A DNA stretch of 64,000 nucleotides from Scatophagus argus (Eukaryota; Chordata; Actinopteri; Scatophagidae): NCBI RefSeq assembly GCF_020382885.2, contig NC_058506.1, positions 10,456,318 through 10,520,317 of the forward strand, given 5' to 3'. This document shows, piece after piece, positions 21,082 to 64,000 of this stretch (position 1 is its first letter; each line of letters starts with the position of its first letter). A program made the position numbers and the translations under genes. The notes beneath the pieces are model-generated. The model saw only the letters and a list, made by a program, of their open reading frames with translations. It was not told where the DNA came from and searched no databases.

Positions 21082-23930
21082 ATGAAATGGGAGAAGTTAA
21101 AGCCTCCGGAGCCAGATGATCCTATGTGTTGCTGTGAGTGTGATATCTACCAGTACGGATGTTGCTGTGACTGTGAAGATATGGACGAAGCCTTTAACAG
21201 GTATGAACTTGAGGAAAAGGGTCGGCGCTGAGTACCACTAGAATATTCTGAACTGGAAAGGAAAAGTAAAAGAAGCCACGTGTTTGCTTGATTTAAATGT
21301 TATTCACAAAAAGTTGCACCTTGTAAAAAAAAAAAAAAAAAAAAAGTCTTCAATCTTCTCATCTAACTTTCAGAAAGAAAGCAAACATTCCAAAGCTTTA
21401 ATACAGTGCATACACATTGCAATGAGGGGGAGCAACTGGGCATCCACAGTTCATTATTTTCCCTCTGAAAGGTTCATTTGGCCCTTATTACAGGAAAGTC
21501 TCTCTCAGATTTCCTCACAAAGTAAGCATAATAAGCTGTGCTTTAAATCCTGAAACAAAAGCAAAACAAAAGTACTTCATTAGAAATCCATATGAGTGAT
21601 TTTAGAGTGTACTGACAAATGTATGCAGCACAAGCACATGAAAAACAAATTACTTTCCACTAATGACACCAAACAACAGATGACTTTGATCACTACTGTT
21701 CTCTGTAGGTGGCTGAAAGACAGACCGCCCAAAAGTGGATGCCAGTCTGCTGTACTTGGGGCCATGATTGACAACCTGGAGATCTCCATGATCCCAGCCC
21801 TGGTGCTGCTACCTCTCCTGCTGCGGGTTGCAGCTCTGCACTACCTGCTGGGCATCATCATCCTGACAGCTCTGCCCGGACTGGTGCTGTGGTACTATTA
21901 CGCCACACACCGAAAGAGGAGACGCACCCTCTTCTTCCTCACTCTTTCGCTGTACTCGCTGTTCTACATGTACTACCTCTTCATCACAGAGATTTTACCA
22001 CGTGGAGACGTGGGCCAGCTGCAGCTGTGCACTGTGACCGGTGGCATGATTTTCACCATCGTCTCTCTTATTCTCACCAAGAGAGGCCCAGGATTTGTGA
22101 CCACTTCCCCACATGAAGCACAAGGTCACAGTCAGGAGGTGAGCAAGGACCTTAACGGATCTATCCAATCAGCAGCCTCCTCCTCTGGGACTGCAGAACA
22201 GGAGCAAACAACAAAACAGGCCCTGGCAGCAAAATGGAGCAGGTGTCCCGTGTGTAAAATAATTCGACCCCCTCGGGCCGGACACTGTCGAACCTGTGGA
22301 TCCTGTGTCCAGCGTCTGGACCACCACTGCATCTGGTAGGTTGGATTTAACATACCGATATTTGTTTACTTATTTATTGATGGATTTCATTATCTTTTTG
22401 CGTTAATGTGTATTGACAGATCATAAAGATGAATGTAGATTTATGAGCGATTAGATAACTGCCCTGATATTTCACACATACAGCCACAATTTCAAGTGTA
22501 ATTTCAGCTTGATTCTAACTGATTTTCTCTCTTACACATAGTTGTATAACTGTCTCTGCATTGAAAACTAACACTTAGAGACTCCAAAGCAGCATGTCTC
22601 TCCATAAATAATGATAATTCACAGTTTTAACAGCTTTGAAAAAATTTTTTTCTGAGGGTGAATGCATGAATGTTGTCTTGTTGAGGTTATGCTCTATGCA
22701 ATAAATATATGTATACTGAATTACTGCTTCATTATCCACTGTAGATATTTTGGCAATATTTAATGTGGCAACAATATCAGATTACTGGTACCAATGTTGA
22801 CGCACATATTTTTTCCCACCTAAGGCCGTATGTAAACTTATAAAACTTTTACTGCTGCTTTAACCTGTTCTGATTGTTACACTGTGCTGTGTGTGCTGAG
22901 GCGCTGTAGGATAAACAGCTGTGTTGGACAGGCAAATCATCGCTGTTTCCTGCTGACCCTCTCTGTGTTCGTGTTGACCTCTCTGTATGGGATCACTTTG
23001 GTGCTGTCCAGCCTCTGTCCTCGACAGTATCTAATGACGGCTCTCTTCTACTGCCCCGCCGTCTACAGCCAGCCCAGGTACAGCACTCTTTAACAAACAC
23101 ACTGACAACCCGCCTTTTCAGCATAGTTGTCATAGTTAAATTGCTGTAATAACTGTATTTCTATATTTATTGCCTTTCTTTATATATGTTGACATGGGAA
23201 GTTAGCATGAACAGCAGAAACGCTTGAGGAAAGCATTGCAGATGTGCTCTTTTTTTGCTTTGAGGTGACGTGTGGCTCACTGTAGAAACCTGGCTTTTTG
23301 TCATATTTATGATGAATGAAGATTGGTTTACGCTGATTATCTCTCAGATCAACTTAAAATGTGTTGCCAAAAGTGAAACGATGGAATTGTACAAATGTGG
23401 CAAAGATATAACAAATAGATAAAGTGATTAAGTGCTCAGCTGCCAGGGTGGAGCATGAAACTCAAGGGTCTTAACAGTGTTTTTGTCTCGCAGCTATCCA
23501 ACCTTTCATTGTCGCTGTGAACAGAGTGACAGAGGGGTATTGTTTTTTAAAAAAATATTTTAAAAGTTTAAAAGACTGTGCTTTTAAATGCATTTGAAAC
23601 ACTGTAGCCTGCTATATTGCTGTTGTGTTATATCCGCCTGTTGTTTACGTTCACAGCACGGCTCTTTGCTTCACCTGTGCTTGGTACAGCAGCATTGTCA
23701 CAGGTGGGCTGCTTTACCTGCTGGTGACACAAGTTGTGAATATCAGCTTCAATGTGACGGAGCGCGAGTCTCAGCTGGCTGTGAGGAACAAAACGGGCCA
23801 GAGCCGCCTGTGGGGACTGGCCATCGACACAGGAGAATATTCACGTGGCTTCTATCAGAACTGGGTTGAGTTCCTCACCATGGCAGATGCCTCGGTTTCT
23901 CCTCGCTCCAGCTTCACCGACTTGGTCTAG
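21082..23930 (+). CDS. zdhhc23: DHHC palmitoyltransferase ZDHHC23 (NIDD)
   Basis: This is an integral membrane S-acyltransferase. In mammals ZDHHC23/NIDD binds neuronal nitric-oxide synthase and palmitoylates BK channels. Coding exons: 21082-21200, 21709-22335, 22910-23077, 23657-23930; 395 aa (human about 409). The N-terminus carries two Cys-rich clusters ([19 protein letters not shown]), as in human. Several hydrophobic helices follow ([21 protein letters not shown], then [11 protein letters not shown], then [16 protein letters not shown]). The cysteine-rich catalytic domain ([21 protein letters not shown]) ends in DHHCIWINSCVG; the active Cys lies at the exon 2/3 boundary region. Further membrane helices come next, then the conserved tail [16 protein letters not shown]. 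The protein ends in TDLV, a D-x-V type PDZ ligand comparable to the human EDIV. It lies next to atp6v1a, as in human 3q13. Confidence 0.95.
21324..21345 (+). repeat. Poly-A tract in zdhhc23 intron 1
   Basis: A homopolymer of about 21 A without a recognisable SINE body in front of it. Confidence 0.7.
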
Positions 23931-32755: not shown

Positions 32756-35700
32756 TCACTCCGCCTGCACCACATCCTTGTGGTGACGCATGATATGCTG
32801 GTTCTTCTCCGAGGGTCGCCGGAAGCCTTTCGAGCAGATCTCGCAGCGGTGTGGATAGTCTTTTGTGTGAATGGAAATCACGTGTCGCTTGAAACCCGAT
32901 GCATCCCCAGTGCTGTAGTCACAGTACTGGCACTGGTAAATTCTCCTTTCCTTTTGTCCTTTGCCAATAACTACAGTCACACTGCTGGCTAAGCTGGCTG
33001 CACTGACTCTACCTGGTGGGCCAGAGCCACTGGACCCACTGGGTGCAGACTTTTTAGGTGTCGCAACAGGGGTGTGTGTCTCTGTCCTCTTGACCTCACT
33101 CTTTTCGGGAGAGGCCTGTTGCTCCTTTGTGTGGACAGACAAGATATGACGACTGAGAACAAAAGGGTCTGCATTTTTATAGTTGCAGTGTCGGCACTGA
33201 TGGAGTTTCTTGGTGCGGTGGGATACCGAGTGCTTCTTCAGTTCAGACGGTCGGTGGAAGCCTTTACCACAGATGGCACATTTGTGTGGGTAGTCCTTGG
33301 TGTGAACAGATATAATATGGCGTTTCAGGTCACTGGAGTTGGAACTTTTGTGATCACAGTGGGCACAATGGTGGGTCTTATTCTCCTCGTGTGTTAGTCC
33401 ATGCTGCATCAGCTCCTCCTCCTCTGCAAAGGTCTGGAAACAGCGCTCACATTTGTATGGCATCTCTTTGCTATGCTTAGTCTTGATGTGCGTCTTGAGA
33501 TTGGAAGAATCGGCCGACTTGTAGTCGCAGTACAGGCAGGAGTAAGGCTTTTCGCCAGTGTGCGTGCGCATGTGTTTCTTCAACTCTGACGGGTGCCGAA
33601 AACCTTTCCCACATTCCACACAGATGTGGGGGAAGCTTTTGCTGTGAACAGCCAACAAGTGCCGGTTGAGCAGTCCTTGCTCTGCAGTTTCATAGTCACA
33701 AAACTTGCATTTGTGCATTTTGGTGGGCGGTGGAGGCGCCTGGTTCTTGGGCTCTCTGTGGTGGTGCTGCAGTCTGTGAGAAAACAGCGCCGCCTGCTGG
33801 TGGAATTCCTTGCCACACATTTCACACTCAAATGGGGCCTTGCTGCTCAGAGCGTGCACCTCCATGTGGTTATGCAGGCTGGCTTTCTTGTTGGTAGTGA
33901 AGTCACAGTCTGTACATTGATACTTTTTTCTTGTCAGAACATCCTGGTGGTGATTCTTGGTGTGGCGTTTCAGAAAACCTCGTGACTTGAACTTCTTGCC
34001 ACAAAGCATGCATGGGTAAACTGTCAAAGGCTGACCATATGGACCAATGATGATGGCTGGAGAGAACAATGACAAGACGGAAACAGAAATGACAACGTAG
34101 TCAGATATCTCCAGCATAAATCTTGTAAAATCTGGGAATATATATGTACAGATTAGACATATTTAGCACAGTGCAGCAGTAACAATTATATTTATAATGA
34201 TTCTTTTAAGTTAGGCTAACACACCCACTGCTTAACTGCACCCGTTACCAGCCGACCCCTCCTTTTAAACACAATAGTCTTTGGTAACGCATGTATAATG
34301 TTTGTTGTGGGAACTGACTCTGTCTCTCACAGAATCAGTTGTTTTGATTTCTTTTGTGATATTATTTATTTTTTACGCATTTGTTTATTTATTTATCGCT
34401 TGCTGTGGACACAAGATTTGCCACCGAGGGGTGTCACAGCAAAATTATTATTCAAAATGATTATTTTTTTCACATTTTTCTTCTGCACAATTAACAGGAT
34501 GACGTGGAACAGGGAAGGCAAATGACAAACAAATTAGCCACTTGAAACAGATTGGACTGAACCCAGTCATGCTAATGTCAAAGACTGCCACCAAAAACAA
34601 ACGCAATGTGTTATTTGATGAGAATATTCCATTTACATTCTTCCAAAACTGACGATTTCCATGTCCTCCGAGTTGCTCTTACCTGTCTGTACCTGCCGAG
34701 GCTCAGACCGTCTCTTGCTCTTGTTGCGTTGTCTATTGATTTCATTGACCCCATCGGATTCATCAATGTGCAGCAGGGCGCTGGCTGCACCGTTTCGGTT
34801 TTCACAACTCTCACTATCCTCCGCACCTGCAAGACCAACAGAATGTATTTACCACAAAAATTAAATAAACCAATAAATACAACAAAAACGAAAGACAGCT
34901 TCTGTAAAAGCTTAAGCCAAGACACTCATAGACGTGGTTGATGCACAGCCTTCCAATTTGGTTTTAAAAGCAATTTAATAGACAGGGGTGCTGACCATAC
35001 GCAGCTGCCCAGGCCACAGGCATGAAGTCCTTGCTTAGAGACACGCTGTCATACGAGCGGTCGTGAGTTACTGGCTCTTCACCTCCTACCACCACCTCCA
35101 TATAAACCTCATCAGTCACCTTGGACCCACCTGTAGATGAGCCCAACATGTACAAAACCAAAAAACTAGTGACGTTTAGTTTCATGTCAGTCATCCCCTC
35201 CTCGTTAGATGTAAATTACTCACCATGGTTTCCTTGATTGTGATGAGAATCCCCGACAGACATGTAAACCATCTTCTCTCTGAGCGCTTGGCCCGAAGTC
35301 TCAGTTAACGCCCCACACTCTGTGTCTCCATCGCTGATGTCAACCGATTCTCCTGCAGAATAAAAACACCTATTAAATCCTTCACGTTCTGGCAAATCTG
35401 CCCAATGTCTCTGTTAAAGGGAAACAATGCCAGGCCAAAAAATTGTTTTAACTGTCATAAATCCATTCATTCCTTTATTTTAAGATGACCACCAAGGATG
35501 GACAGACATCCTGTTTTCCAAAAACAGAAAAGGGCATTACTGGCCAGTAACTTCCACAAAGAGACAGTTCTTCTAATCAACAATAACATTTATATAGTGA
35601 TGCACCGATCGACAGGGACCGGAACTGGCCAGTTTTCAGCATTCTCAGCCCAGAGCAGAGAGTGGCGGGGCAGTCTCCCGTATCCCTGGCTCCTAGTTGG

Positions 35701-38700
35701 TTAGTTTTGTCCATGCACAGCACATACCCACAGCGGGGCAGGCAATAACATCACAGCCACCCACTAACATGTCTTTATCGTGGACAAAAAACACAAAGCT
35801 CGCAATCTGTAATACATGTAAGGCCCAAGTAAGCCATTGGAGAGTGCCATGAAAACGTTTGGAACAATAAACCCTATCAGACATTTGAAACACCATCAAC
35901 CAGCTGAACGTGCCCAGTTTGAAGAAGCTAGCAAAGCAAAAACGGCTAAAGCTAAAGCTAGCCAGAGCTCAGTGCCAAACACAAGCCAACGCCATCTCTC
36001 GTCTTTCTTTGGTATGAGCAGTGAAAAGACCAAAGCAATTAACAGGAAAATTATGGAATTCATGGCCCTGGATGATCAACTGTGCTCCATGGTTGAGAAC
36101 AGAGGCTTCAGAAATATGATAAATTATCTCAGTCCTGGTCAATTTATAAGCATGCTGTAAAACAATACAAGTAACTGACATATGTTTCTGTTAAATAAAT
36201 CTGTTGCACCTGCTTTTGCTTGGTATTTGTAGCTCTTTCCAGTTGCTTTATTTTGGGAGGAAAATATAAAGTGAAATAATTTCTTTTATTATGAAAGTAA
36301 AATGTTGCATTGAAGAAACACTGATTTTGTCTATATGTACTGTCAGTTACAGCTCTTGGGGAATTGGAAGAAAACTGCAATCAGTGCACCTCTACATTTA
36401 TATATTTTCTAATTATTTGTACTGGTTGGTGGTTGATGTAATACAAACTGTAACCAGTCAGCTAGCATAAAGAGGAGTTTTGTTTTACATGGTATTGAAA
36501 CAAGAGAATTTCATGGACAAACCCACATCCAACAGGGTACTTTGTGGAAATCACTAGTACTAGTACTAGTGAAGGGTGAAAACATAACCTTAACAAAGAT
36601 AAAGCTTTACTTCTACTCACCCATATCATCCTCCCCAGAATCAGCCTTGAAGATGTACACCTTAATCACCTCCTGTCCATCCTCATCCTTCTCCACTTCC
36701 TGGTCCTCCACAGCTCCCTCCACTGTTACCTCTGTTCCATCCTCGGACACCATTTTACCAGCTTCATCCACTGCCGTGGAGGAGGACACAAATCGCATTT
36801 CATTAAAGACGTGCCAGTGTGTGTGGGGTCTACCAGACATGAGCTGGTAACAGTAAATTAAATTTAACAACGTACCACTATTTTTGCTGAGTGAAGATGC
36901 AGCTTGAACGCTATTTTACCATTTCACAACATTCTTGAATTCTAAAGTAATGATCACAATTAATACTTCACGCTTTTCTGAATACTTAATAAATGTTATG
37001 CAGTCAATTCTGGGATGTGATACCATCAGTTTTCTTCAAAATAAATTGTTTAGGAGTAGTTCTGGGTTATCAACAACAGCAAATTACAACTGACTTTATA
37101 TGCCATCATTTCAAAATGTAACTGAGTTCAAACACCTCATAGCCTTTTATAAGTGCTTAGCCATCTTAAAACAAAGTATAAATTAATTACTAACACTACA
37201 TGACAGTCAGCTTCATGTCTATTCAACAGCAAAAACATTCAGTGGTTTGGTCAGTACGGAGTAACTGTTGCATTTATTGTAGCATGAAAGAAAACTGGCT
37301 ACATGTGCTAATCACATGGCTATGTGCCAGGGATGTTTCAAAATTGACATTTGTTACAGTCCAAACAGTTTACAAACTCAACTGTCAGCAACAACCAGTC
37401 AATAATTTAGACAAAAAGTGTCACAAGTTTGTGAAGAACAGAGATGTATCTGAATAGCTATCATAAACCTGAAGACTCAACCAGAAATAAACAAACTGCT
37501 ATATTCTTAGTTGTAAGCAAGCCTATGTCATTTTAAAAACACTGCAAACCATACAAATAAAAAAAATGAAATTAAAATTATATCATGTGATATACTTAAT
37601 TCACATTTATGTGTATAAAGGCCCCATCTACATTTAGTGTCTTGTCATTTAGCCATGTATATGGATCTTTGTTGGTCAGATCATGATTCTGATTCCAACC
37701 AGTCTTCGTTTTCCTGGCTACATGCAAATTAAGGTCAGCCCTCACCCAGTCTAGGAGGAGGTAATATACACCTGAAACTGGTAACAGCCAAATACCCCAG
37801 AAGAAGAGTAACTTCTGTTCTTTAGCAATTTAACTACAACAATAAGAGCATTTTAACATTAGCTAACAACGATCTATAATCTAACACAAACACATAAACA
37901 GACTGGCCAATTTAGGTGTAATCTAACTGCTGTTCTTAGGGCAGAGGAGTCAGAACATGGTTGAATTAAGAATATCAGCAGGCATTTCCACAAACTGCTT
38001 GCTGACATAGTTACACTATAGGAGGAGCACGGTTTATGTGTCCATCTTTGAGGGAATGCTGTCTTTACACCATTTTAACATCTGGAAAAAAGGCCACTGC
38101 CTCCTCCATTTCTGAAAGTGGTTTCACATACTACATTTCAATCCATCTTCAATGCTTCTTGGATGCATTTACACAGATGGCATCTGCTAAAGTGACTAAG
38201 TGTAAATGGGGTCCATATGCTTTCCAGAGGAGCAACAGCACATGTAAATGCAATCCCAGCAGAGCAGAGCAGTAAACTTACAGGATATCATTAGATAATC
38301 TCCACAGCCATCTTGGTCATCCTCCTGCTGCTCTGGGTCCAACCCATCTTCGGGGATGTCTCCCATGGCAACACCTTCCTCCTCGCCCTCCAGAGCCATC
38401 ACACAGGTTTCTACAGCGACATCTTCATCTTCATCGCAGTGCACATACTCAGAAACCACATCCTCAACAGCATCCTGGATGACTAGCTCATCTGGGGCAA
38501 ACCTGTGAACTGCCATGCCTTCCCCTTCGCCTTCTGACACCAACACAGTCTCTTGAAGCTCCACAACAAACTCCTGCCCGCTGGCACCACCCTCATCTGG
38601 AAGAAGCAGGATTATCCAGTTAACCAGATAGCACTCAATTGTGTGTGTATGTTTTAAATGGCAAATTAAGTGTTACTAATTTCTTTCTGACATCATGCAA

Positions 38701-50084: not shown

Positions 50085-52840
50085 TCACTTGGCCTTCTTT
50101 ATTATCTTGGCCAGCTGCCTTCTCTCATTTTCTGGGATGATCTTTGTCCACAGGTGCAAAAAGTCCTTGTGGCGAGCCAGTTCATGGAGGATTATTTGCC
50201 CATGGTGCCTGTTGAGAGTTGTATTTTTCATTTAGCACAATGTTCAAAGAATAAAGTAAAGATTTTGAAAACAAACAAAAAGAAATTAAAATAAAAACTA
50301 ATTTGTACACTAAAATAATTGAACTTGATAACCCACCTCACTTCTGGTGCAGCATCCACAGACATTTTAGAGACAGCAGTCAGGAAGCGTTCAGTGAAGC
50401 TCCTTCCTGCCTTCAACATGTGAGCTGCTCCAAATTTGTCAGTCAGCAGGTGCAGGTGTTGTGCTGTGCTTCCTCTTATTGCAGCACAACGGTGGCTGAG
50501 GAAGGACAAAGACAGAGAAATAAAATAAATCAGGTGATTATGTTTCACCTTATTGTATTCCCTTATAACGCTTGTGCTTATAAAATGAATGCAGCTTTTT
50601 GTCTCTTACCTCAGCCCTGTGTTCAGCAGAGCGCTCACAGTCCTACCATGGCTACAATTCTGCACCAGGGCGTCAAGTGCAAGATTGACCTGCTGGTGAA
50701 TAAACTCATTTGTGGTTTGGGCAAGTTTCAGAAGCAGAGCTCGGCCTGTTCCTTCTGCCTCCGGGTCCATGGCTGTCTGGAGGTGAACGTACAGCTCAGC
50801 TAGTGTGCTGACAGCTGCGCAAGCAACTGCAGAGCGCAAGTTTTTCACCTGCACAGCAAAAATAAACACCATCATTAAAGATTGCACACTCACAGACACG
50901 TGTTGGCAAATGAAAATGCATTGAACACAAAGATGGAAACAAAGATACAAAGAGGAGAATGTGCACAATACCTCCTCAATGAGCACCAGGCACACTTGAT
51001 GAAGTTGAGTCTTCAAGATGTCTGAGTGGTGCTGTGCTAGAGCTCGGATGGTTTTCAGGCCCTCTGTTTTCTTCATCCTGCATGTTTATGTGACAAGAAT
51101 GATTTAATTGCACTGTACAACACTTCAGGAATGACACAAACAACCCTAATACACCTGCAATTGCTGCAAATAGTGATAGTTTTAAATGTAAAGCATAATT
51201 AAACACAAATGTACGCTTCACTGGGAGATGTTGCACCAGCTGATGTAAGATGCAGCTCATAATATTTACTGGCTAGTAGAGTGTGTAAAATGGCATTTGG
51301 ATGAGGGTTTTCTAGTGTCAAGGTCTTACCAGTCATCTGAGGAGAGCAGCTTGAAGCTAAGAGACAGGCTCTCCACAGGATTGTTCAAAGGCTGCAGATC
51401 CACCTTTTTGTCTTTAGCAGGCTGGAAGCAGCAATCTCTGGCTTCTACTAAAGCACACAATACTCTTTAGTCACCTTTCTTTCATTCAAAGCATTGTATT
51501 TAGTGTAGCTACTGTAACTCTTTACAAAAATCTGTAAGGAATGTATGAATAAAAGCTGAAGTTCACAGCTTGTATTACTATTATTCAGCACGTGCATAGA
51601 TTAACGTACCTGCTTTACTGATGACCTTTGCGGGACGCAGGATCATTCCGGGTCGAGACCCTTTTCTTTTTGTTTGAGGAGCTGTTGGAGGGCTTGGGGC
51701 CAGAAGCGTCTCCACAGGCGTCCTCTTGGCAGCAGCTGGCGGTTGAGGAGAAGGAACAGTGTTGAGCTGGATGCGCTTAGGTCCCTCCGCACTAACCTCA
51801 ACCTTATCTTTTCCAGACTGGCGCCTACATCCATCTGCAACCTCCTTGACTGTTGAGATAAACAATATATAATAACTGAGACAAAGTCCAAAGATTTGAG
51901 CAGAACATCCCTGTGTCTCTATGATTCCATCAGAAACTAGCCTGAACAGCAACAAAAGAAAGACATCTTTAGAGGGACTGACCTGCTCCATTCAGTCTGG
52001 TTGATAACAGAGGCAGCCGGGACACTTTGCTCCTAGAGCGTAGCACCGCTTGAGGAGGAGCTGGTGTGAAGGTTGCAACCTGAACAGAGCTTGCAATCAG
52101 AGGAATGGCCCTCAGGTCACTGGGTGTGTGAGTATCCACAGAGCTGAGGCTGGACCAAGACCTGATAGAAGCAGCTGGGCTCTCTCTGTCTCCCACCTGA
52201 GCCTGCTCGCTGCTAAGTAGCATCAGGTCACAAGAGGAACTGTCATCCTCTTCCTCATCCGAACTCTCAGAGCTCTGTTGGTTTTTGTTTATGCACTCCA
52301 CACTGAAATGAGATGCATCTGAAAGAGGGCTCAACCGCCTTCCTCGCAGGGAGGGAGCTTGTCTTCTGGGAAAAGCTGGTGGTTGAGCTGAAGGCAGAGT
52401 GGCGTGCTTAGCGAAGAGTCCCAGCCTCTCCAGAACAGCATCGTTTCGGGCTTTTACAGAAGCACACAGCCTTTCTGCGTGTTGCATTAACGCAGCCCTC
52501 TCAGCTCTCTTTGCCCTTTCTATGTCCAAGATCCTGGACTCACTGGTGAAACCAACAGGGTTCTCCTGTCTACACTGGCTCCCAGTTTGCTGTGGAAATG
52601 AAGTACAATAAAATCACTGAGTAATTTATAATCTGTAATAACCCAGTACTTTTGTAAGGTGACAGAGAAGTTTTTAAAGCAGTCAGCTGCTCTGTGTGCA
52701 TCAAAGAAAAACCTTGAGATACAAACAGAAGGAAGGTCAGAGATGAGCAGAGTTGGTTTACTTACAGAAGCATCTTCGCACTCACTGCGGCTCCTCTGCC
52801 AAAACCGGTGGAAGATGCTTGATGTTTCTTGATTATCCAT
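50085..52840 (-). CDS. TOGARAM-like protein with a single C-terminal TOG region
   Basis: Probable microtubule/ciliary protein of the Crescerin (TOGARAM/FAM179) family, whose TOG domains bind tubulin. Eight coding exons in reading order: 52840-52766, 52589-51983, 51849-51610, 51447-51330, 51077-50972, 50848-50610, 50495-50337, 50208-50085; 555 aa. Residues 1 to about 310 are low-complexity, Ser/Pro/Arg-rich, with an acidic run (SSESSDEEEDDSSS). From about residue 330 the sequence is helical HEAT-like: SLSFKLLSSDDWMKKTEGLK, LARALAQHHSD-type helix, VCLVLIEEVKNLRSAVACAA, GTGRALLLKLAQTTNEFIHQ, ALDALVQNCSHGRTVSALLN, then TAQHLHLLTDKFGAAHML. It ends WTKIIPENERRQLAKIIKKAK. Human TOGARAM2 is about 1,000 aa with more TOG domains, so this is a short form. 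Family membership is fairly sure, the orthologue is not. An in-frame upstream ATG at 52903 is an alternative start. Confidence 0.75.
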
Positions 52841-53568: not shown

Positions 53569-53574
53569 TTTATT
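53569..53574 (-). terminator. Polyadenylation signal of the pdha1-like paralogue
   Basis: AATAAA on the - strand, 154 bases after the stop codon of the E1 alpha paralogue. Confidence 0.5.
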
Positions 53575-53727: not shown

Positions 53728-56700
53728 TTAAACAGACTTCAGCTTGGTCCATGGGTTTGTGCCGCGCACCTCCAGGGTTGGACTGCCACAGAAGATGTGG
53801 TTACACAGTTCCTCCAGTGGGGGTTCAGGGTTTGTAATCGCAAACTGTGCAGCTTCTTCCACTTCTTTAATAATACCCACATCCACCTCCTACATGGCCA
53901 GGCAGCGGAACAAAAACAGATGTTATTCGAACATATGGGTGCTTACAACATTCTGATCAGTGGATAAGTTGTTGATCACGGAGAATAAAACTATCCATCC
54001 ATCCATTTTCTATACTGCTTGTCCTTCAGCTGACTGCGGCAAGAGGCGAGGTTCACCCTGTACTGGTTGTCGGTCAATTGTAGGACTGACACACAAAGAC
54101 AGACAACCACACATGCACACATTCACTCCTAAGGGCAATGTAGAGTAGCCAGTTAATCTAACTGGGATTGTGGGAGGAAGCTGGAGTACCCGGAGTGCCG
54201 GTAGTTTGTTAGATTTTAGTCTGGTGTCATGCCTGTGTCAAGGCTCATCCCAAATAGGATTAAACATCCAAAACATACGTGAATCACAATTTATTACAAA
54301 TCTTTTCATTCATTTAAAGTAACAGGCTACCTACAGCTCATTTATCAAGAAATTTTGGCTACAATTGCAGGTCTTATTCCCTCCTTCAGTCAGGAATTTG
54401 TGCATTTTTTTTATTTATCTCAGACTTCAGTACTATTTTGTCTTCCATACTCTCCCCTGTTTAAAGCTCCTAGAAATTTTCAGCTTGAATAAACTACCTC
54501 AAGCTCCTCCTTGCTGGTCATGTTGTTGCTGAGCATCCGCTCCCTCAGCATAGAGATAGGATCGCTCTCTCTGCGGACCTTCTCAACCTCCTCCCGTGAG
54601 CGATAGCTGGGGTGGGAGATATTGGAGCAAGAACGTTACATTTTTACACCTATTACTTATTCAAAGAGCCAAAGTTGAATTAATCTTAATCTGTCATTGT
54701 TATCATCATCATCACCTTCATCACTACCTTCCTCATGAAACTAAAACAGTGTTACAACAATCAGCAACATCAATTTAAAATAAGGAGTAACAGTGACTCA
54801 GTAAAAACTACATAAGCACAAGAGCACACACGCTCTTTTACCTCAGGTGATCTTCACCCTCATGATGTCCAGCAAAACGGAAGGTCTTAAGCTCCAGAAG
54901 AATGGGACCCTGAATACAAATTGAGTTACAGTACAAGTTAGACAGAAATATGGTAAAGACATGACATAAACTATTAGAATACATTAATACATTTTTGTAA
55001 TTATCAGTTGACAATTAACACAACCTAAAAAGAAAAACTGTTAATTCACCTTCCCAGATCGGCAGTGGTCAGCCGCAAACCTGGTTGCCTCACGAACACA
55101 CAAAACGTCCATCCCATCCACCTAAACATAAAGCCACAAGTTTGCACAGGTTCCCACCAAAAGAGATGAATTTTAGATATTAAGAATCACTGAAATGCAT
55201 TGGAAAGTAAGGGTCATAGAAGGTGATAATGTCAGGGCCATATGTCTGTGGTCTGCAGAATTAATGATTGAGTTTAATTCTTGAAGAGCAACAACCATGC
55301 AGACAAACAGTCTCTCTACCAAGTAAGGGAAATCTCTCTCAGAAGAAAAAAATTAAGAACCGTACCCTGAGACCAGGAATGAAATCTCCTCTCTTGTAGA
55401 AGTCTGTGCTTGCAGACACTCGCTTTATTGCCGTACCTTTAGCATACCTGTTGTTCTCACAGACAAAAATGACAGGCAACTTCCACAGAGCAGCCATGTT
55501 GAAGGTTTCAAAAACCTGACCCTGTGGAACACAGAAACAGAGAAGAAGCTTTGTTTACTCTAAGCCAGTGTATACAGCTACTGATATGTTACAGTGTTAA
55601 TCAGTTCAATGTGTAAACTTGCAAGCATTAAGATTTCTGTCATATACTGTACCTGATTGGCTGCACCATCACCATAGACACAAACACTCAGTTCATTTTT
55701 GTTCTGATACTTGCAAGCAAAAGCTAGACCAGCACCTAGGGGAACCTCAGGACAGTACAGACAGAGACAAAGTTACATAATTCTTAACTTTAAATAGTAA
55801 TACTATCCATGTGAATGAAAACAGCTGATGAGATTTGCCCTGAGATGCTGTCTAGGCTGACAAGGAAGCCCAAAACTGTTGCATGAGTTACTGCTCCGAG
55901 TTACGCAGTTTATATCTCAGGATTGGGGAAACAGGGAACATGATGGGTATGGGCATAGTACTGGACTGTTGTGGTCAAGAGGGAGCTGAACTGGAAGGCA
56001 GAGAGCTCACAGTAAAGCTACCGCTCCTTTCCACTGAAAAGGAGCCAGCTGAGTTGATTGGGACATCTGATTGAGATGACTCCTTGGCACTTTCCTTTGG
56101 ACGTTTTGCAGCACATCCAACTATGAGGACAAGTGGGGCCAGACCAAGAACTCATTGTATATGAGTTGCATATCTCATCTGGCCTGGGAAGGTCTTGAAA
56201 TACCTCAAGAGGAGGTGGAAAATGTTGCTGTGGAGAGTGATGTCTGAAATACACCGTTTATCCTGCTGCCACCACAACCCGATTCTTTCTTATATTTCTC
56301 TTGCAGTCCCTCATTGCTACACAAGAGCAATACTAATCACTGTAGAGCCAGTATTAAAATTGTATAAAAATGACAGGTGACGTAACAACCTGCTGGAGTT
56401 AGTGGAGAGTTGCTTCAGTTAAGCCACTACAGTTGTTGTCATTATGTTGAGTATTTACCTGAGATCCAACAATACCATTTCCTCCATAGAACGTTTTAGC
56501 GAACATATGCATGGAGCCTCCTCTGCCCTTTGAAATACCTGCACTTCTACCTGAAAACCAAGTGATGAGAACGGTGACAACACAGAAAAACTGAACTTGG
56601 GCCAAAATACAGCACGTTCAAAACTTACCAGCAAGCTCAGACATGATTTCTTCAAGCGACCCGCCCCTGGTGTAAGCAAAACCATGAGTACGATATGCAG

Positions 56701-59294
56701 TGATCAGGTGGTCGCTTAAGTTAATTTCTGCTTCAATACCAACTGCACAGGCTTCCTACAAGGAGAAAGCAAAAAGATATATTTTTTTGGAAACTGGGAA
56801 AATGGGAATGGTTTTTGTTGAGATTTGGGACAGCTGACTGCGGGCAAGAGGCGTCATTCACCCTGGACTGGTCGCCAGTCAATCGCAGGACTGACACACA
56901 AAGACAGACAACCATACATGCACACACTCACACCTAGGGGTAAAATAGAGTAGCCAGTTAACTTAATGTACATGTTTTTGGGACTATGGGAGGAAGCCAG
57001 AGTACCCAGAAAAAACCCACGCAGGCACAGGGAGAACATGCAAAATCCACACAGAAGGGACAGGCTGACAGCATCATTGGTGCATCAACAAGATCCAGGT
57101 GGGGAAGACAAACTCAGAAGATTTTGCAGCTCTGATTATTAACTGATTATGTGGAGTGGAATCCATAGTATTTGGTAAATCACAAATAATGTGTTGATAT
57201 GAATATTTTATTACAAAAACGTCAAATAGCTAGTGTTTTTATGAGTGCATTGGGTATTTGTGCAGGAAGACAACAGGATCATGGAGAGAAAGCACACACT
57301 GAAAAGGAGTGGCAAAGCCGGATTAAAATAAAATTTGCTGAGGTAGTTTGTTATAATGCTACTTATCTTTTGTTTTCCTGTTGAACTCGCAATATGTGTC
57401 AACTCAGTGAAGCTTCCTCGATTGGGTGGTGCCTGTATTGCTGGCAGTGCAAGGCGTAGGTCCCATTTTGTGTGATTGCTTCAAATTGCATCTACTCTTG
57501 ACAATGACTTGTGTAATCTGTTAGGCTACTCTCTTTTCTGCAGACAGGAAGATGTAGTTAGTTTCATTGTTAACTGTATTATATTATTCCAATTCCATAT
57601 CATCTTTATAATTACAAAGATGATCAAGACTAGTCCAATAATTCTATCAAGACTGTCCAGATGATCCATAATGCTGTTGTGCATGTACTGACAAGAATTA
57701 TATTAAGAGATCATATTTCTCCTACCGTGGCTTCTCTGCACTGGTTCCCTGTATATACTGAGCATAAAATTAAGATCCACACCTACAAAGCCCTAATGTT
57801 CAGGCATCTTCATATCTTGAACTGTGCAGAGTAAGTGGAATGGGAGCCAGAGCCTTCGTCTATCAAGCTCCCCTGATGTGGAACCATCTTCCAGTCCCTC
57901 TCTGTATTTAAAAAGGTAGGTTTACAGCTTTCCCTTTTTGGTAGCGCTTATATCATTACTATTATTATTGTTGTTGTTGTTGTTGTTGTTTTTGCACATG
58001 TCTGAGTGTCTCTCTGCACATTCCTATTACACACATGTAATATATTTGTATATAAGTGGAAATATCAATTGTACTCCACCTGGCCATTGTACAGGTGGCA
58101 GGCACCTCTAATAATCTGCTGCTTGAAGAGCTGTTCAGCCTTCAGCTCGAAACACCGGATCGTCTGCATCGTGCGGTAGTACTGCAGACCCTCGTTACGA
58201 GTCAGAACCACCTGAGTGGCTGGGCCCTCATCCAGCTTGTGGAGGTCACTTTTCTGAAAAAAGGAAAACAATAACCATAAATCGTAGTGTGTAGTGTGAA
58301 TATATTTGTTTGACAAAACAGATTAAAAAAAAAAGCATTTAACCTCTATTTCAAAGGTAGCGTGAGAGGTGAAGCTGCTGTATGCATGTGCTGACAGCAC
58401 CCCTGCAGCTCCCTGCAAAAAGAGAAATGAATATGCTTCATTTGTCATGTCCAAGAAATGATGTTAACTTTATTCAATCAATTTAATTTTTGGCTCGTGT
58501 CTGTGCTGTCTTGTAATTTCTTGTCTTGTGGTTTTATTTTGTCACTTCTTCCTGTCTTTGTCTGTGTCTATTGTCCCCCTCCTTTGGAATTATCTGTCTC
58601 CTCCCTGATTATTTGCATCTGTGGCCTTACCTTGTGTGTGTGCATATAGTCCTTGTCTCCCTTTGTCCTGTGCCAGTTCGTCTTGTCCCTTGTGTCAAAC
58701 AACCAGCATCATCTCCATGCCTTTGCCTTTGCCGTTGTCACTGCCATTGCCAGTGCCAGGTCTTGTTATTTTGTTACATTGTTCAAGTGATTTTCTGTTT
58801 GTTTTCTTAGCCTGGCTTGAGTCAAGGGAGTTTTTTGTTTCTTAGATTAGCATAGGTTTTTTTTCTCTGTGAAGAATTATTTTCAGTTTGTACCTTTTGT
58901 GAATAAAAGTTTTATTTTGAAACTTTGAGAATCGTGCATTTGTGTTCAGGTCCGTTAGTTCAGTCGTTACATTATTATGAAAGTCCATCTGTCCGTATGT
59001 TTTTTATACCGCTTATCCAAGCCTATCCCAGCTGACTACGGGCGAGACTTATAATAACAAGTGAATCACATATATGGTACAGAAAATTAGACAAAAAAAA
59101 TTAGACAAAATGTTAGAACATAAGAAATTTCTGTTTTTGTTTCTTTCTTTTGATAATACTTATACTGAATTTGAAAGCCTCATCATAAAAACAAACTCCA
59201 TTGGTCAATTTTCTGGTATTTCACAGTGTAAGTATGCCAGACTTACTTTTCTCTGAACAGCCGTCCTCAGCGTGTTGGAAATAATGTTCAACAT
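53728..59294 (-). CDS. Divergent pyruvate dehydrogenase E1 alpha paralogue (intact)
   Basis: E1 alpha of the mitochondrial pyruvate dehydrogenase complex decarboxylates pyruvate with thiamine diphosphate. Eleven coding exons in reading order: 59294-59247, 58412-58344, 58253-58080, 56755-56629, 56550-56459, 55745-55653, 55521-55366, 55121-55050, 54909-54842, 54606-54498, 53889-53728; 389 aa (human PDHA1 390), so numbering matches. Residues 1-30 are a basic mitochondrial leader ([16 protein letters not shown]). Kept: [35 protein letters not shown], the ThDP motif GDGAANQ (195-201) to NN (224-225), and His292. Changed: Ser232 is Ala ([10 protein letters not shown]), His290 is Ala, Ser293 is His. 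The loop [13 protein letters not shown] becomes [13 protein letters not shown]; Ser300 remains. It lies just downstream of a canonical copy, in the same direction, with CNHIF and RGTNPW shared, so the pair is a tandem duplication. Introns carry several repeats. No frame break: a live gene. Confidence 0.93.
53990..54197 (+). repeat. Teleost LINE/SINE-tail repeat, copy 2
   Basis: Begins 'tccatccatccattttctat' and follows the same order of phrases as copy 1, ending in 'ggagtacccggag'. It lies in the last intron of the E1 alpha paralogue, antisense to it. Confidence 0.7.
56828..57061 (+). repeat. Teleost LINE/SINE-tail repeat, copy 3
   Basis: Runs from 'cagctgactgcgggcaagag' through 'agtagccagttaacttaatg' to 'aaatccacacagaaggga'. 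It lacks the tccatccat head. It lies in intron 3 of the E1 alpha paralogue, antisense to it. Confidence 0.75.
57640..57912 (+). mobile_element. LINE fragment (C-terminal end of a reverse transcriptase ORF)
   Basis: The + strand translates as [15 protein letters not shown], then [28 protein letters not shown] and, after stops, a trailing part resembling the LWNxLPxxL end. This is the typical tail of L2/Rex1/CR1-like non-LTR reverse transcriptases (HWLPV motif). The fragment is short, has in-frame stops and is dead. It sits in intron 3 of the E1 alpha paralogue. Confidence 0.75.
57969..57990. repeat. (TTG)n microsatellite
   Basis: About seven TTG units following a short ATT run, in intron 3 of the E1 alpha paralogue. 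It directly follows the LINE fragment and could be its tail. Confidence 0.8.
58988..59048 (+). repeat. Teleost LINE/SINE-tail repeat, copy 4 (short)
   Basis: 'tataccgcttatccaagcct' followed by 'cccagctgactacgggcgag' matches the head of copies 1-3 only. It is truncated and lies in intron 1 of the E1 alpha paralogue. Confidence 0.6.
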
Positions 59295-62200
59295 CTTGAT
59301 GTGAGAAGCAACTGACACTCCTTACCTTATACTACAGTCTTCATCACTAACAAATAGGTTGTCTTTCTGGTCTGATTACTTCACACACATACCGTAAACA
59401 CGCCTGTGCTAAGGTACACAATCAAATGTATACTTACAAGGAGACATCATACTGCAGTTACAGGCCCTGGGTGGCAGCAGTGAGTCGTTGTAATATTTTC
59501 TAATGTTTTGCAATATATTTAGGTTTTAAGCCCATTATCTCATAGATTAGAGATTAGAGACAGAGAATAGATTTTCTCCCAATCACACCTTGAATTAACT
59601 ACAGATAAACATAGTCAAATGTTTTCAGACATCATGCTGAGAACCAGTTTATTTTATGCAGAAATGTAGGGGAACTTATGTGTGTTTGAACAGATGTTTT
59701 GTCATTCATAGAAAACCTATGCGAAATGTGAAATGTCAAACAAATGAGGTTATGAGGTAGATTTATTGCAGAAGATGCCAAACATACGAATGCTTGTCAG
59801 TCGAGATCAATTCCTTAGCTGTCAAAACTACTTGTGTCCACAAGACTGTCTTTAGTGCTTCAGACAGTTACTTCTTCACCAGGGGCCAGTCATGTACTGT
59901 AGTAATGCTGGGAAACGAGGGAGGGACCCTGTACAATTAGATCACTCAGCATGGTGGCTCTTAACATTGTAGTCAAATAAGATGTGGTATCTGAGAGGTT
60001 GGAGGCTCTGCCTGGGAATGGTCATTTTGGCCATGTTGCTCATATATTGCTGTGTCCACCAAGAATCAACACCTCAGTCTGTAACTCTTTGTGGCGTTTA
60101 GCCAATTCATCTGATTTTTAAACTGTTGTAAAACTGTAAAACCACTTCACCATCCACCATCACCATTGTCTTGCTGACAAAAATCAATTATTGTAGCTTG
60201 TAACGAGACCCCGTCGCTGTTATCCTGATGTTAATTTACAAAAAAAAAGCCAAGCAAATTTTCTAAGACTAATGTCGGTTTCATCAGCGATGACTCAGAC
60301 TCAGACTGACTTGTAAAAGAAACTGCTCATTAGTGCTGATTTTTGTACTCCACTTAAGTAATTTAAGATGAGACTTATTCCCTCCCTAAACCAGAAGAAC
60401 TTTGGCTGGCATAAGCAGCAAAAAACAAAACAAAAAACAAGCCACAAATGAAACGGGAAAAGCAAATGTTCACATGGGTGCTACGTCTACACCCACAAAA
60501 CAAAAAGGTTTTAATTTGAAAATCATGTCCCTGTTTTTTTTTGTTGTTTTTTTTAATAAACCAATCTTTACTTTACTGAAATGGTAACATGCATTGGCTG
60601 TTCACTGATGTACAAGGTCAAAGCTGTGGACAACAGCTGTGCATATAGACCAAAACAAGTACACAAACACAGTACTTTACAAGATTTTTATTACAAGCCA
60701 CGCATGCATAAAACCAGTGATTCTATGGAGCGTTTCCTTGCATCATCCGCCACCCTCAATGTAACAGTTTACAACAACAAATACACTGTAAGCATTTTCA
60801 ATTGTTTCAAGACAGGTACAGACATTTCAAATTGTAGTTTGTCTTCTTATGAATACTTTACACATTACAGAGAAAAGACCCTTCGCTTCTAACCCGTTAA
60901 GTTGTTACAATGTCACACTAGTGTTACACTATGTAGATATATGGGCCGTTTTCATTTTGCTACCTGAGGTGTCACTCAGTTCATGTGTTCAAGTATTTGA
61001 CAAGAAAAAAGCAGACAAATTCAAAATGTATCCCTGTAAGTCACGTTCCACTTCTGGTGTCATGTGAGCCAAAGCGGCACATGAAGCTACTGAGGTTCTC
61101 TCTGCTGAAACAACAACACCTAATCCAGCATCATGTGAAGAGCGAAGCTTTGATGATGAATGCACTTTGACTAAAAGTCTTTATGTTAACATTCATCATT
61201 GATGGTTCAGCTTGTGGTCATTTTTATAAAAACAGAGTAAGAGCTTCTCTAAATATATGACAATGAACAGTTGATGTTTGTGAAACTCCAAAGGCACCCG
61301 AGCACCTGAGTATCTGCAGAATAACCACATGAATATGAACACACCGTGAAGAGCTGACTTTCTAGATGGATAAATCACCTGAGGATAGACTCATCCACTA
61401 GACAATACAATGCCTGCCAGGCACATGTGTGGTTTGGCAAGACAAATTAAAATTTCAAACCTTTCCCTTGGTATTTTTTTTAATTTTGTTTTACCATACA
61501 TATTAAGAGATAAACATATGGAGATAGTCTTTGCCTTGCTGCCTTTAATGGTGTCTTTATAACAGGGGGTTAAATAAAAGACAAGAAAAAAAAAAGAACT
61601 AGTTAACTCAGACTGAATGGTTTATCGTGTACACTTCAGTATAAAGAGTACAAAGTCTTTTTTTTTTTTTTTTTAACAGCTTGGACATTCTCAGATGAAT
61701 AGTGAAGGAAGGACATTTGTTTTATTGCACCTCAAAAGTGACCAGAGATAATCGTCAAACAAGCAAATTTTGAATCTTAAATATATTCACATGGGGCCCG
61801 ATTAACAAAACCTTCTGAAGATAAGTGCTTTATGTTATTTACATCCCTCAAAAAACAAAAAAACTGTTATTAATTTATATCTTTTGGTAATTGTACAAGA
61901 CAGAACTTTAAATAATCTACCAACACCCAGGACTGTGATTTGGATGGCTAAACATTAAACGAAAGATCTGCATTGTGGTGAGTTTCCCAATGGTTGAATA
62001 TTCTTCAAGAAAAATATAAATAGATATGGGACAGAACAGCTGATTGTGGAAGCTGCTTTTCAAATGGTACAAATTTGACTGGCAGTAACTGGCTCTTCTG
62101 AAAGCAGAAAAACGAGCCCTGATACCCCTGATTGTGAATTACAGCATAAAACAAAGTTTTGAAAAAGGTTTTGTCTATTTATGTTCTTGTCAATCTTTGT

Positions 62201-62413: not shown

Positions 62414-64000
62414 TCAGCTAACAGACTTCAGCTTGGCCCAGGGGTTTGTGCCTCGCACCTCCAGAGGTGGATTGTTGTGAAAGATGTGGTTGCACAATTC
62501 ATCCAGTTGGGGTTCGGGATCTGTGGTGGCAAACTGAGTGGCTTCTTCAATTTCCTTCCTCACCTCCACATCAATCTCCTACAGACATAGTAGAAAATTT
62601 TAGGAATTACTCCAACAGTCTGTTAGAGTACATCTGCACGACCAAAGGTATTTGGTTATGTGGGTTTTCTGTTCAATTAGAGAAAATAAAGTTATGTGTG
62701 TGCTCAATTCAATACATTTATTCACTATTAAAAAAATGTGTTGAGGACTATCTTAACAGATCTTGATCACTGAGGCACCTGCAGTGGACAAAATACATCA
62801 ATCCATACAGCATATAGTAGACCAATGTGTATCTAAGGGGTTGAAGGGTGCTTTCACACCTACAGTTCAGATCAACCATTGACATTTACAAAGATGGACA
62901 ACATGTCTCACACACAGGCATGAAACCATGCCTACAAAAGAGACAATTTACATTCTTCTTTCTTATTCAACTGGAAACTACAACCACTTCCAAACTGCAG
63001 ACATAAAACTGCACATCCGGTTGTCTGATGGCTGAAGCCAACTTCTTAACAGTATTTGTGCTGTAGTGAGCTCATCTGGCAGGTGACCGTGGAGCCGAGA
63101 CAGAAACTCTTGTGTTAAAACAAAGCACTGCAGCTTTGTGTGTGCAGCTGGAGGCTGCGGCTCACTTCCTCAATATACACAATCCTGACTCTCACTATAA
63201 TTATGAATTAAATTTAGACTTTGAAATCTAAATTTAAATGAATGTTTTAAAAGCCACTAAAAAAATACATAAGTGTGAGCATTTGTTCTTTTTACAAACT
63301 ATAAGTACCTTGAGCTCCTCCACACTGGCCATATTGTTGCTGAGCATGCGGTCCTTCAGCATGGAGATGGGGTCACTCTTACCGCGGACCTCCTGGATCT
63401 CCTCACGTGTGCGGTAACTGAAAGGGGAGAGATTGGTGCAGGGATGTTGTAGGGATGCACTACTACACTTTTTTTTTAGAGCTGATGCTAAATCAAATTG
63501 CTGTAACTTCAGTATTTGAAACTTCTGATTAAAAGCAATGCACTACATTGACTAACCACTGTATGATATGAAGATGATTGATTTGGGATCATTGTGCAAA
63601 AACCAGCAAGCAATAGAACAAAATGTAACTTTAACTTTGCTAATAACTCCAAGTATGGTTACATTTCTAATCAGAGAACTTCCTCCTGTATTATTCAAGT
63701 CAGACATTCGCCTGCTAAAGCCAATAGCCATGTTAGTGTCTGTGTTGAGTCCATCCCTGGGATGTGGTCACAGCGTTGCAAGGCAACTACAGCAGGGAGA
63801 AGAGTACATGAAGACTACTGTGGCAGAAGCAAGGGGCAGTAGCACAGTGAGGACAGGATATAAATGATTAATATACTAGTAAATCAATTAATAAATAAAA
63901 ACATTTTAAAAACACCTCCAAAAAAGAGTCATTTAAATAGGACAGGAACTGATCATTTACCTGACACCAGGATCACTCATACTGTGTCCATGATAGCGGT
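62414..64000 (-). CDS. pdha1: Pyruvate dehydrogenase E1 alpha, canonical copy (3' part only)
   Basis: Only the last three coding exons are in the window: 64000-63961 (cut by the edge), 63417-63309 and 62578-62414. The first encodes [13 protein letters not shown], the unchanged active-site loop with Ser293 and Ser300, the two PDK/PDP-controlled serines. The second encodes [20 protein letters not shown] and ends in SVEELK. The last encodes [20 protein letters not shown] and ends in [13 protein letters not shown] before TGA. Every landmark matches human PDHA1. The 109-nt penultimate exon has exactly the same length as in the neighbouring paralogue. Transcription runs leftward toward that paralogue. 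The mitochondrial leader and ThDP motif must lie beyond 64000. Confidence 0.95.

Follow-up and report, generated by a model that had tools for sequence, protein, structure and literature searches.

The minus strand of the window, a 64,000-nucleotide stretch of the Scatophagus argus genome, carries a divergent PDH E1-alpha paralogue, here called F, which may well be a working, tandem-duplicated mitochondrial E1-alpha whose two active-site loops were rewritten after duplication, with altered control and altered coupling to E2. This reading derives from sequence comparison and is held with middling confidence. Alignment to human PDHA1 places Ala at Ser232, His at Ser293 and a retained Ser300, residues that the first-pass annotation had read correctly. 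Only one of the three phosphoserines is thus left, and for this reason F is not classed as a PDK-regulated PDHA1-type subunit. F gives up PDH-specific residues while the family-wide E1-alpha core is spared. Because the changes cluster in the two loops that carry the off-switches, F probably makes a differently regulated, and perhaps differently reacting, enzyme.

The coding sequence of F runs on the minus strand from an ATG at 59294 to a stop codon ending at 53728. It comprises 1170 nt in 11 exons and encodes 389 aa, with GT...AG at 10/10 introns. The coordinates in the first-pass annotation were exact and are here supplied with a strand, and its full-length frame, ThDP motif and splice sites all hold in the 11-exon model. 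The mitochondrial leader that it also described is putative, being judged by eye and from the homology of exon 2 to that of a neighbouring gene, U. The features of F and of the part of U within the window are as follows.

53728..59294, minus strand: F, divergent PDH E1-alpha paralogue (gene model, human PDHA1 match, TIGR03182)
59247..59294, minus strand: F exon 1, start codon and putative leader (gene model)
58344..58412, minus strand: F exon 2, putative leader end and start of the mature protein (gene model; 77% nucleotide identity to U exon 2)
58080..58253, minus strand: F exon 3 (gene model)
56629..56755, minus strand: F exon 4 (gene model)
56459..56550, minus strand: F exon 5 (gene model)
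55653..55745, minus strand: F exon 6, first half of the ThDP motif, GDG (gene model, alignment)
55366..55521, minus strand: F exon 7, second half of the ThDP motif, NN, and the inner active-site/phosphorylation loop with M229K, S232A and E234K
55050..55121, minus strand: F exon 8 (gene model)
54842..54909, minus strand: F exon 9, rewritten outer active-site/phosphorylation loop including 293H
54498..54606, minus strand: F exon 10, which finishes the Ser300 codon split by intron 9 and continues with YR
53728..53889, minus strand: F exon 11 and stop (AATAAA downstream at 53574)
62414..64000, minus strand, running past the window edge: 3' part of U, canonical PDH E1-alpha
63961-64000, 63309-63417 and 62414-62578, minus strand: end of exon 9, exon 10 and exon 11 of U

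The F C terminus is one codon shorter than that of U (KSV stop versus KSVS stop, 53728-53733), and this early stop looks like a 3-nt insertion that carries the stop. A CpG-rich promoter was not seen near the F start, as CpG observed/expected is 0.23-0.49 across 59000-60500. Introns 10 and 3 hold 85% identical copies of a 124-nt element (54038-54161 and 56843-56966) that looks like a dispersed fish repeat. Elsewhere in the window, a CLASP_N-type exon (50609-51085, minus strand; 27.6 bits, cut-off 27) marks the gene directly 3' of F on the same strand. A ZFX/ZFY-like gene on the minus strand (32759-38672) includes one exon of zinc fingers, with 8 C2H2 stretches, and one acidic exon, which weakly matches the activation region of Zfx/Zfy (17.3 bits against a cut-off of 25). 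An open stretch on the plus strand (21596-22336) extends into a DHHC palmitoyltransferase domain.

By descent and by profile, F belongs to the PDH E1-alpha family, and its enzyme activity is predicted. The closest solved protein is human PDHA1 (E 3.8e-171), to which F aligns from residue 28 through the C terminus with no gap, at 66% identity (122 differences/360) and with a complete ThDP motif (GDG...NN). It scores above the curated cut-off of the NCBIfam equivalog TIGR03182 (418.6 versus 393.85 bits), as do U (455.9) and a third copy, T (456.3), and in a protein tree of 11 rows it clusters with U, T and human at 100/100.

F and U form a tandem pair on the same strand, with U on the 5' side and F on the 3' side. 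The organism's own genome was searched (570.7 Mb in 48 contigs, in which the window is C14:10456318-10520317); exons 2-11 of U were read there, its exon 1 was not located, and exons 3-11 of T were found on contig C18. A family search of the genome contigs gave one distant locus, at 28% identity. Over exons 3-11 the intron positions of F are common to U and T, and both sister copies keep canonical loops with Ser232, Ser293 and Ser300. F and U share 259/350 amino acids. At the four-fold sites common to all three copies (n=98), 34 agree in F and U only, 13 in F and T only and 10 in U and T only (34 versus 13, p=0.003). Since these sites favour F with U, the F/U pair most likely arose by a tandem duplication that postdates the split of U from T. 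Synonymous divergence (dS, NG86) is 0.81 for F-U, against 2.4 for U-T and 3.2 for F-T, the latter two saturated. In teleosts, two clades of E1-alpha that go back to the genome duplication of this group have been described (PMC5554223), and we infer that T and U belong to them. An origin of F as an ancient pre-tetrapod paralogue was considered and rejected: the protein tree does set F outside U, T and human (86/89), against the tandem-pair reading, but a clade of F and U is not rejected (p-AU 0.097), and because the F branch is long its outermost position is likely to reflect long-branch attraction.

The two lost serines are only part of a broader change. The first-pass annotation had described two of three phosphoserines as lost; S232A and S293H stand, but that account is too narrow, as the outer loop is rewritten, the inner loop is changed and a canonical neighbour lies beside the gene. 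Residues 293-299 are all replaced in F, and further loop changes are Y287F, Y289F, H290A, G228A, M229K, V233I and E234K. In the outer loop, F reads GHHEGED where human, U, T and two alphaproteobacterial rows read GHSMSDP; among the bacterial and archaeal rows, GHSMSDP was not found in all of those annotated pdhA. Lineage-specific changes, counted across 350 codons wherever human and the two remaining fish copies have the same residue, number 57 in F, 16 in T and 7 in U. The earlier description of an otherwise conserved protein is not supported as stated, given this count of 57 F-specific changes against 7 in U.

The clustering of these changes at the regulatory loops, also proposed in the first-pass annotation, is upheld. 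Residues 293-299 form a run of seven changed sites among the 263 conserved in human, U and T (scan-statistic P=0.004). When the loop boundaries are transferred from the G. stearothermophilus enzyme (inner 226-235, outer 289-311), 18/32 loop sites are changed in F versus 39/231 others (Fisher p=4.5e-6), and the corresponding loop counts are 0/32 in U and 1/33 in T. The narrower outer loop of PMC2663715 (296-313) gives 14/26 versus 43/237 (p=1.4e-4), and the inner loop alone gives 5/9 versus 52/254 (p=0.025). With our own limits of 226-236 and 286-300, which were drawn after the data had been seen, the counts are 16/25 versus 41/238. A compensated double frameshift was tried as the origin of the new outer loop and is not supported, since allowing gaps in the alignment to U raises the score by 5 units (P=0.28).

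The core of the protein gives a different picture. F keeps 22/22 of the columns that are invariant in E1-alpha (12 bacterial/archaeal E1s plus human), including R288, H292 and the ThDP-motif residues, and 57/67 near-invariant columns, compared with 60 each in human, U and T. For columns invariant in four PDHs, the figures are 84/95 in F, 95 in U and 93 in T. The PDH-specific residues lost in F are R73C, Y82F, F90A, A136S, V189L, M229K, Y287F, S293H, M294E, D296E and P297D. F resembles vertebrate PDHA1, including U and T, in its 11 exons, ThDP motif, His292 and site 2 (Ser300), but differs from them in the absence of sites 1 and 3 and in the change of both active-site loops.

Published work on E1 suggests what such changes could do. 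A single phosphorylated serine, whichever of the three it is, reportedly inactivates PDHA1; the most frequent target is site 1 (Ser293), and the serines are carried by loops through which the lipoyl domain is recruited (PMC4059968). A Y289F substitution resists Src (PMC5041892). In a bacterial E1, the inner and outer loops become ordered around ThDP and engage or gate the lipoyl domain; His271, which equals human His292 by position, has been proposed to assist acyl transfer; and the alpha-subunit substitution I206A gave 1331% of artificial-acceptor activity with 35% of complex activity (PMC2663715). I206 of that alpha subunit is taken as human M229 from a mutagenesis primer in PMC2663715 together with the Limosilactobacillus row. 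On this mapping, M229K puts a lysine at the bacterial residue that contacts the ThDP thiazolium ring; other in-frame rows have no Lys there.

The proposed mechanism is that, after duplication, the F inner loop (site 3) and outer loop (sites 1 and 2) were rewritten, with the ThDP-binding and catalytic core retained. F would then most likely assemble with the E1-beta of the fish into a second E1 species, with F as its only alpha chain or together with alpha chains of U or T. Neither PDK at sites 1 and 3 nor Src at Tyr289 would act on this species, which would be switchable only at Ser300, if at all, and would probably have altered coupling to the E2 lipoyl domain. Ser300 may still switch F off. 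As docking of the E2 lipoyl domain also involves these loops, kinase control and E2 coupling have probably both changed, and a PDH that is constitutively active is just one of the possible readings. With His292 kept, and with K229 and a new outer loop, F would therefore probably bind ThDP and decarboxylate pyruvate with a changed acyl handover. Losses at PDH-conserved sites (R73C, F90A, M229K) could in addition weaken catalysis. We infer that F is expressed, pairs with E1-beta, escapes the kinase at the lost sites and is altered in its coupling.

In a search of the genome with PF02779, a single PDHB locus was found, at C3:23.94 Mb, and it keeps the E2-contact residue Asp319 (YLDSP). The same search gave a more distant E1-beta-like locus on C9, which we take to be BCKDHB, and three further places (two on C8 and one at C3:12.83 Mb) with no PDHB match; because only the best candidates are scored, a PDHB copy may have been missed. 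With one E1-beta locus found, the mixed tetramers suggested in the first-pass annotation are plausible. Sharing of E1-beta has a mammalian parallel in PDHA2, a testis E1-alpha able to use the same E1-beta as the housekeeping form does (PMC12377818). F is likewise a second E1-alpha that could share E1-beta, but it is an 11-exon tandem duplicate, unlike PDHA2, which is a single-exon retrogene (PMC12377818).

An alternative that is unlikely, again judged from sequence, is that the F loops are uncoupled from the lipoyl domain, so that F-E1 would decarboxylate pyruvate and give acetaldehyde or, with a second carbonyl, acetoin. Such an enzyme would be convergently acetoin-dehydrogenase-like or Carassius-like. 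The outer loop of F was compared with those of 20 usable bacterial and archaeal E1-alphas; 21 rows had been hand-picked among 40 listed of 652 plasmid records, and Azospirillum TSH58 was left out because its translation was in a wrong frame. The F loop (286-297) scores 46 against TYRYRGHYEGDE of Haladaptatus and 32-36 against five other EG-type (GHFEGD-type) rows, whereas its scores against the bacterial PDH rows of the HSM type (n=5) are 20-27 and that against human is 26. It scores 38 against the single locus annotated acetoin oxidoreductase (GHILGE), and low scorers (19-25) also occur among the non-PDH rows. Random replacement of six positions gives P=0.020 (BLOSUM-conditional) or 0.005 (flat) for the best loop score, and P=0.010 or 0.012 for its excess over the PDH rows. 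Relative to the pattern GH[FY]EG[DE], whose name EG type is coined here, GHHEGE of F matches at E294, G295 and the acid at 296, and has His at 293. Reading this type as acetoin-type is partly our assumption, as the gene annotated NAD kinase before two such loci is presumably AcoX.

Likeness to the acetoin-dehydrogenase-type E1-alpha lies in the outer loop (GH-x-EG-acid), in Phe289, as in some rows, and in a charged residue at 229. The difference is that F sits in the vertebrate PDHA clade, outside the acetoin-type clade, and has K229 where the acetoin-type rows have Glu. The resemblance of the loop is suggestive, and is not proof of acetoin chemistry. The bacterial I206A enzyme (PMC2663715) offers a precedent for decarboxylation with reduced complex activity, and a fish pyruvate decarboxylase derived from E1 is known, namely Carassius E1-alpha3/E1-beta2, in which the change is D319N in E1-beta (PMC5554223). 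Modelling in that study predicted no change to E1 from any further substitution, and phosphorylation of E1-alpha persists in muscle (PMC5554223). F resembles the Carassius enzyme as a fish E1 paralogue with a likely changed role, but its changes lie in the E1-alpha loops, and the E1-beta found keeps Asp319. Since a single PDHB locus was found and Asp319 is retained in it, there is no sign of a Carassius-type second E1-beta among the best candidates scored with PF02779. A specific form of this alternative is distinctly unlikely: that F and ordinary E1-beta together form a pyruvate decarboxylase/carboligase free of regulation, or else an E1 that uses a new acyl acceptor, whose outer loop converged on that of acetoin-dehydrogenase E1 and which, unlike the Carassius enzyme, was reached through E1-alpha. 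Literature on fish PDHA1 paralogues, tandem copies and phosphosite loss yielded the Carassius work and no title or abstract on an F-like gene; gene databases and most subscription papers fell outside the scope of this search, and the gene may already be catalogued.

The interpretation favoured in the first-pass annotation, in which F is normally coupled and, freed from the main off-switch, keeps PDH partly active in some tissue or stage, is as unlikely as the uncoupled alternative on the sequence features considered here. S293H and S232A do remove PDK sites 1 and 3, and the core residues are kept. However, Ser300 is also kept, and a single phosphorylated site, whichever it is, reportedly inactivates the enzyme (PMC4059968). 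Moreover, the loop is changed far beyond the serines, including M294, D296 and P297, which are invariant in the 4 PDHs compared. Because the rewritten loops engage the lipoyl domain, normal PDH flux with F may be lower, not higher. It is quite unlikely that F is instead a catalytically weak or dead alpha subunit, acting as a dosage buffer or as a dominant-negative partner that occupies E1-beta. The changes at seven PDH-conserved sites (R73C, F90A, M229K, S293H, M294E, D296E and P297D) and the finding of one E1-beta locus to compete for would fit such a role, but all 22 columns invariant among the 13 E1-alphas, with the ThDP-motif residues and His292 among them, are retained.

The preferred reading, a working E1-alpha with rewritten loops, also has to be weighed against decay. 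In a two-ratio codon model with three taxa, omega reaches 0.37 on the F branch, against 0.043 for U and T together (p=1.8e-10 versus one ratio). A free-ratio model beats the two-ratio model (p=0.0098) and gives 0.24 for F, 0.13 for U and 0.03 for T, so the contrast between F and U alone is approximately twofold and of uncertain size; the count of 57 versus 7 amino-acid changes is independent of the omega model. The first-pass annotation had proposed dN/dS as a check on decay, and under both models the estimate for F is below 1, but neutrality is not cleanly rejected: fixing omega of F at 1 gives p=0.066 versus the two-ratio model, or 0.083 without the loops. As a neutral F branch is just marginally worse, the codon model alone is no proof of constraint. 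Within F, omega is approximately 2 for the loop codons and 0.33 for the rest, and a loop omega of 2 is better than 1 by just 2.7 lnL units, such that simple loss of constraint also fits. A stronger argument than the codon model is the intact frame at an F-U dS of approximately 0.8, which argues against decay. In neutral drift simulations of the F frame (n=400 each, indels not counted), stop-free runs fell from 16% at 0.05 substitutions/site to 0.75% at 0.1, 0.25% at 0.2 and 0 at 0.35. It is very unlikely that F is a decaying copy under relaxed constraint and without selected function, despite its raised omega, a neutral model that is not cleanly rejected (p=0.066) and a shortened C terminus. 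Its 390 codons are free of stops and frameshifts and all splice sites are kept, whereas in the neutral simulations the frame is lost at much lower divergence, and the changes gather in two functional loops with the family-wide core spared. Altered function is likelier than decay, in agreement with the first-pass annotation.

PDK control of PDHA1 is the main gate from glycolysis to the TCA cycle. F, lying beside a canonical sister, is a natural experiment on two questions: whether a vertebrate E1 can work without sites 1 and 3, and whether the loops can change without loss of lipoyl coupling. If F proves to be uncoupled, a pyruvate decarboxylase or acetoin-forming enzyme would have arisen in vertebrates a second time and independently.
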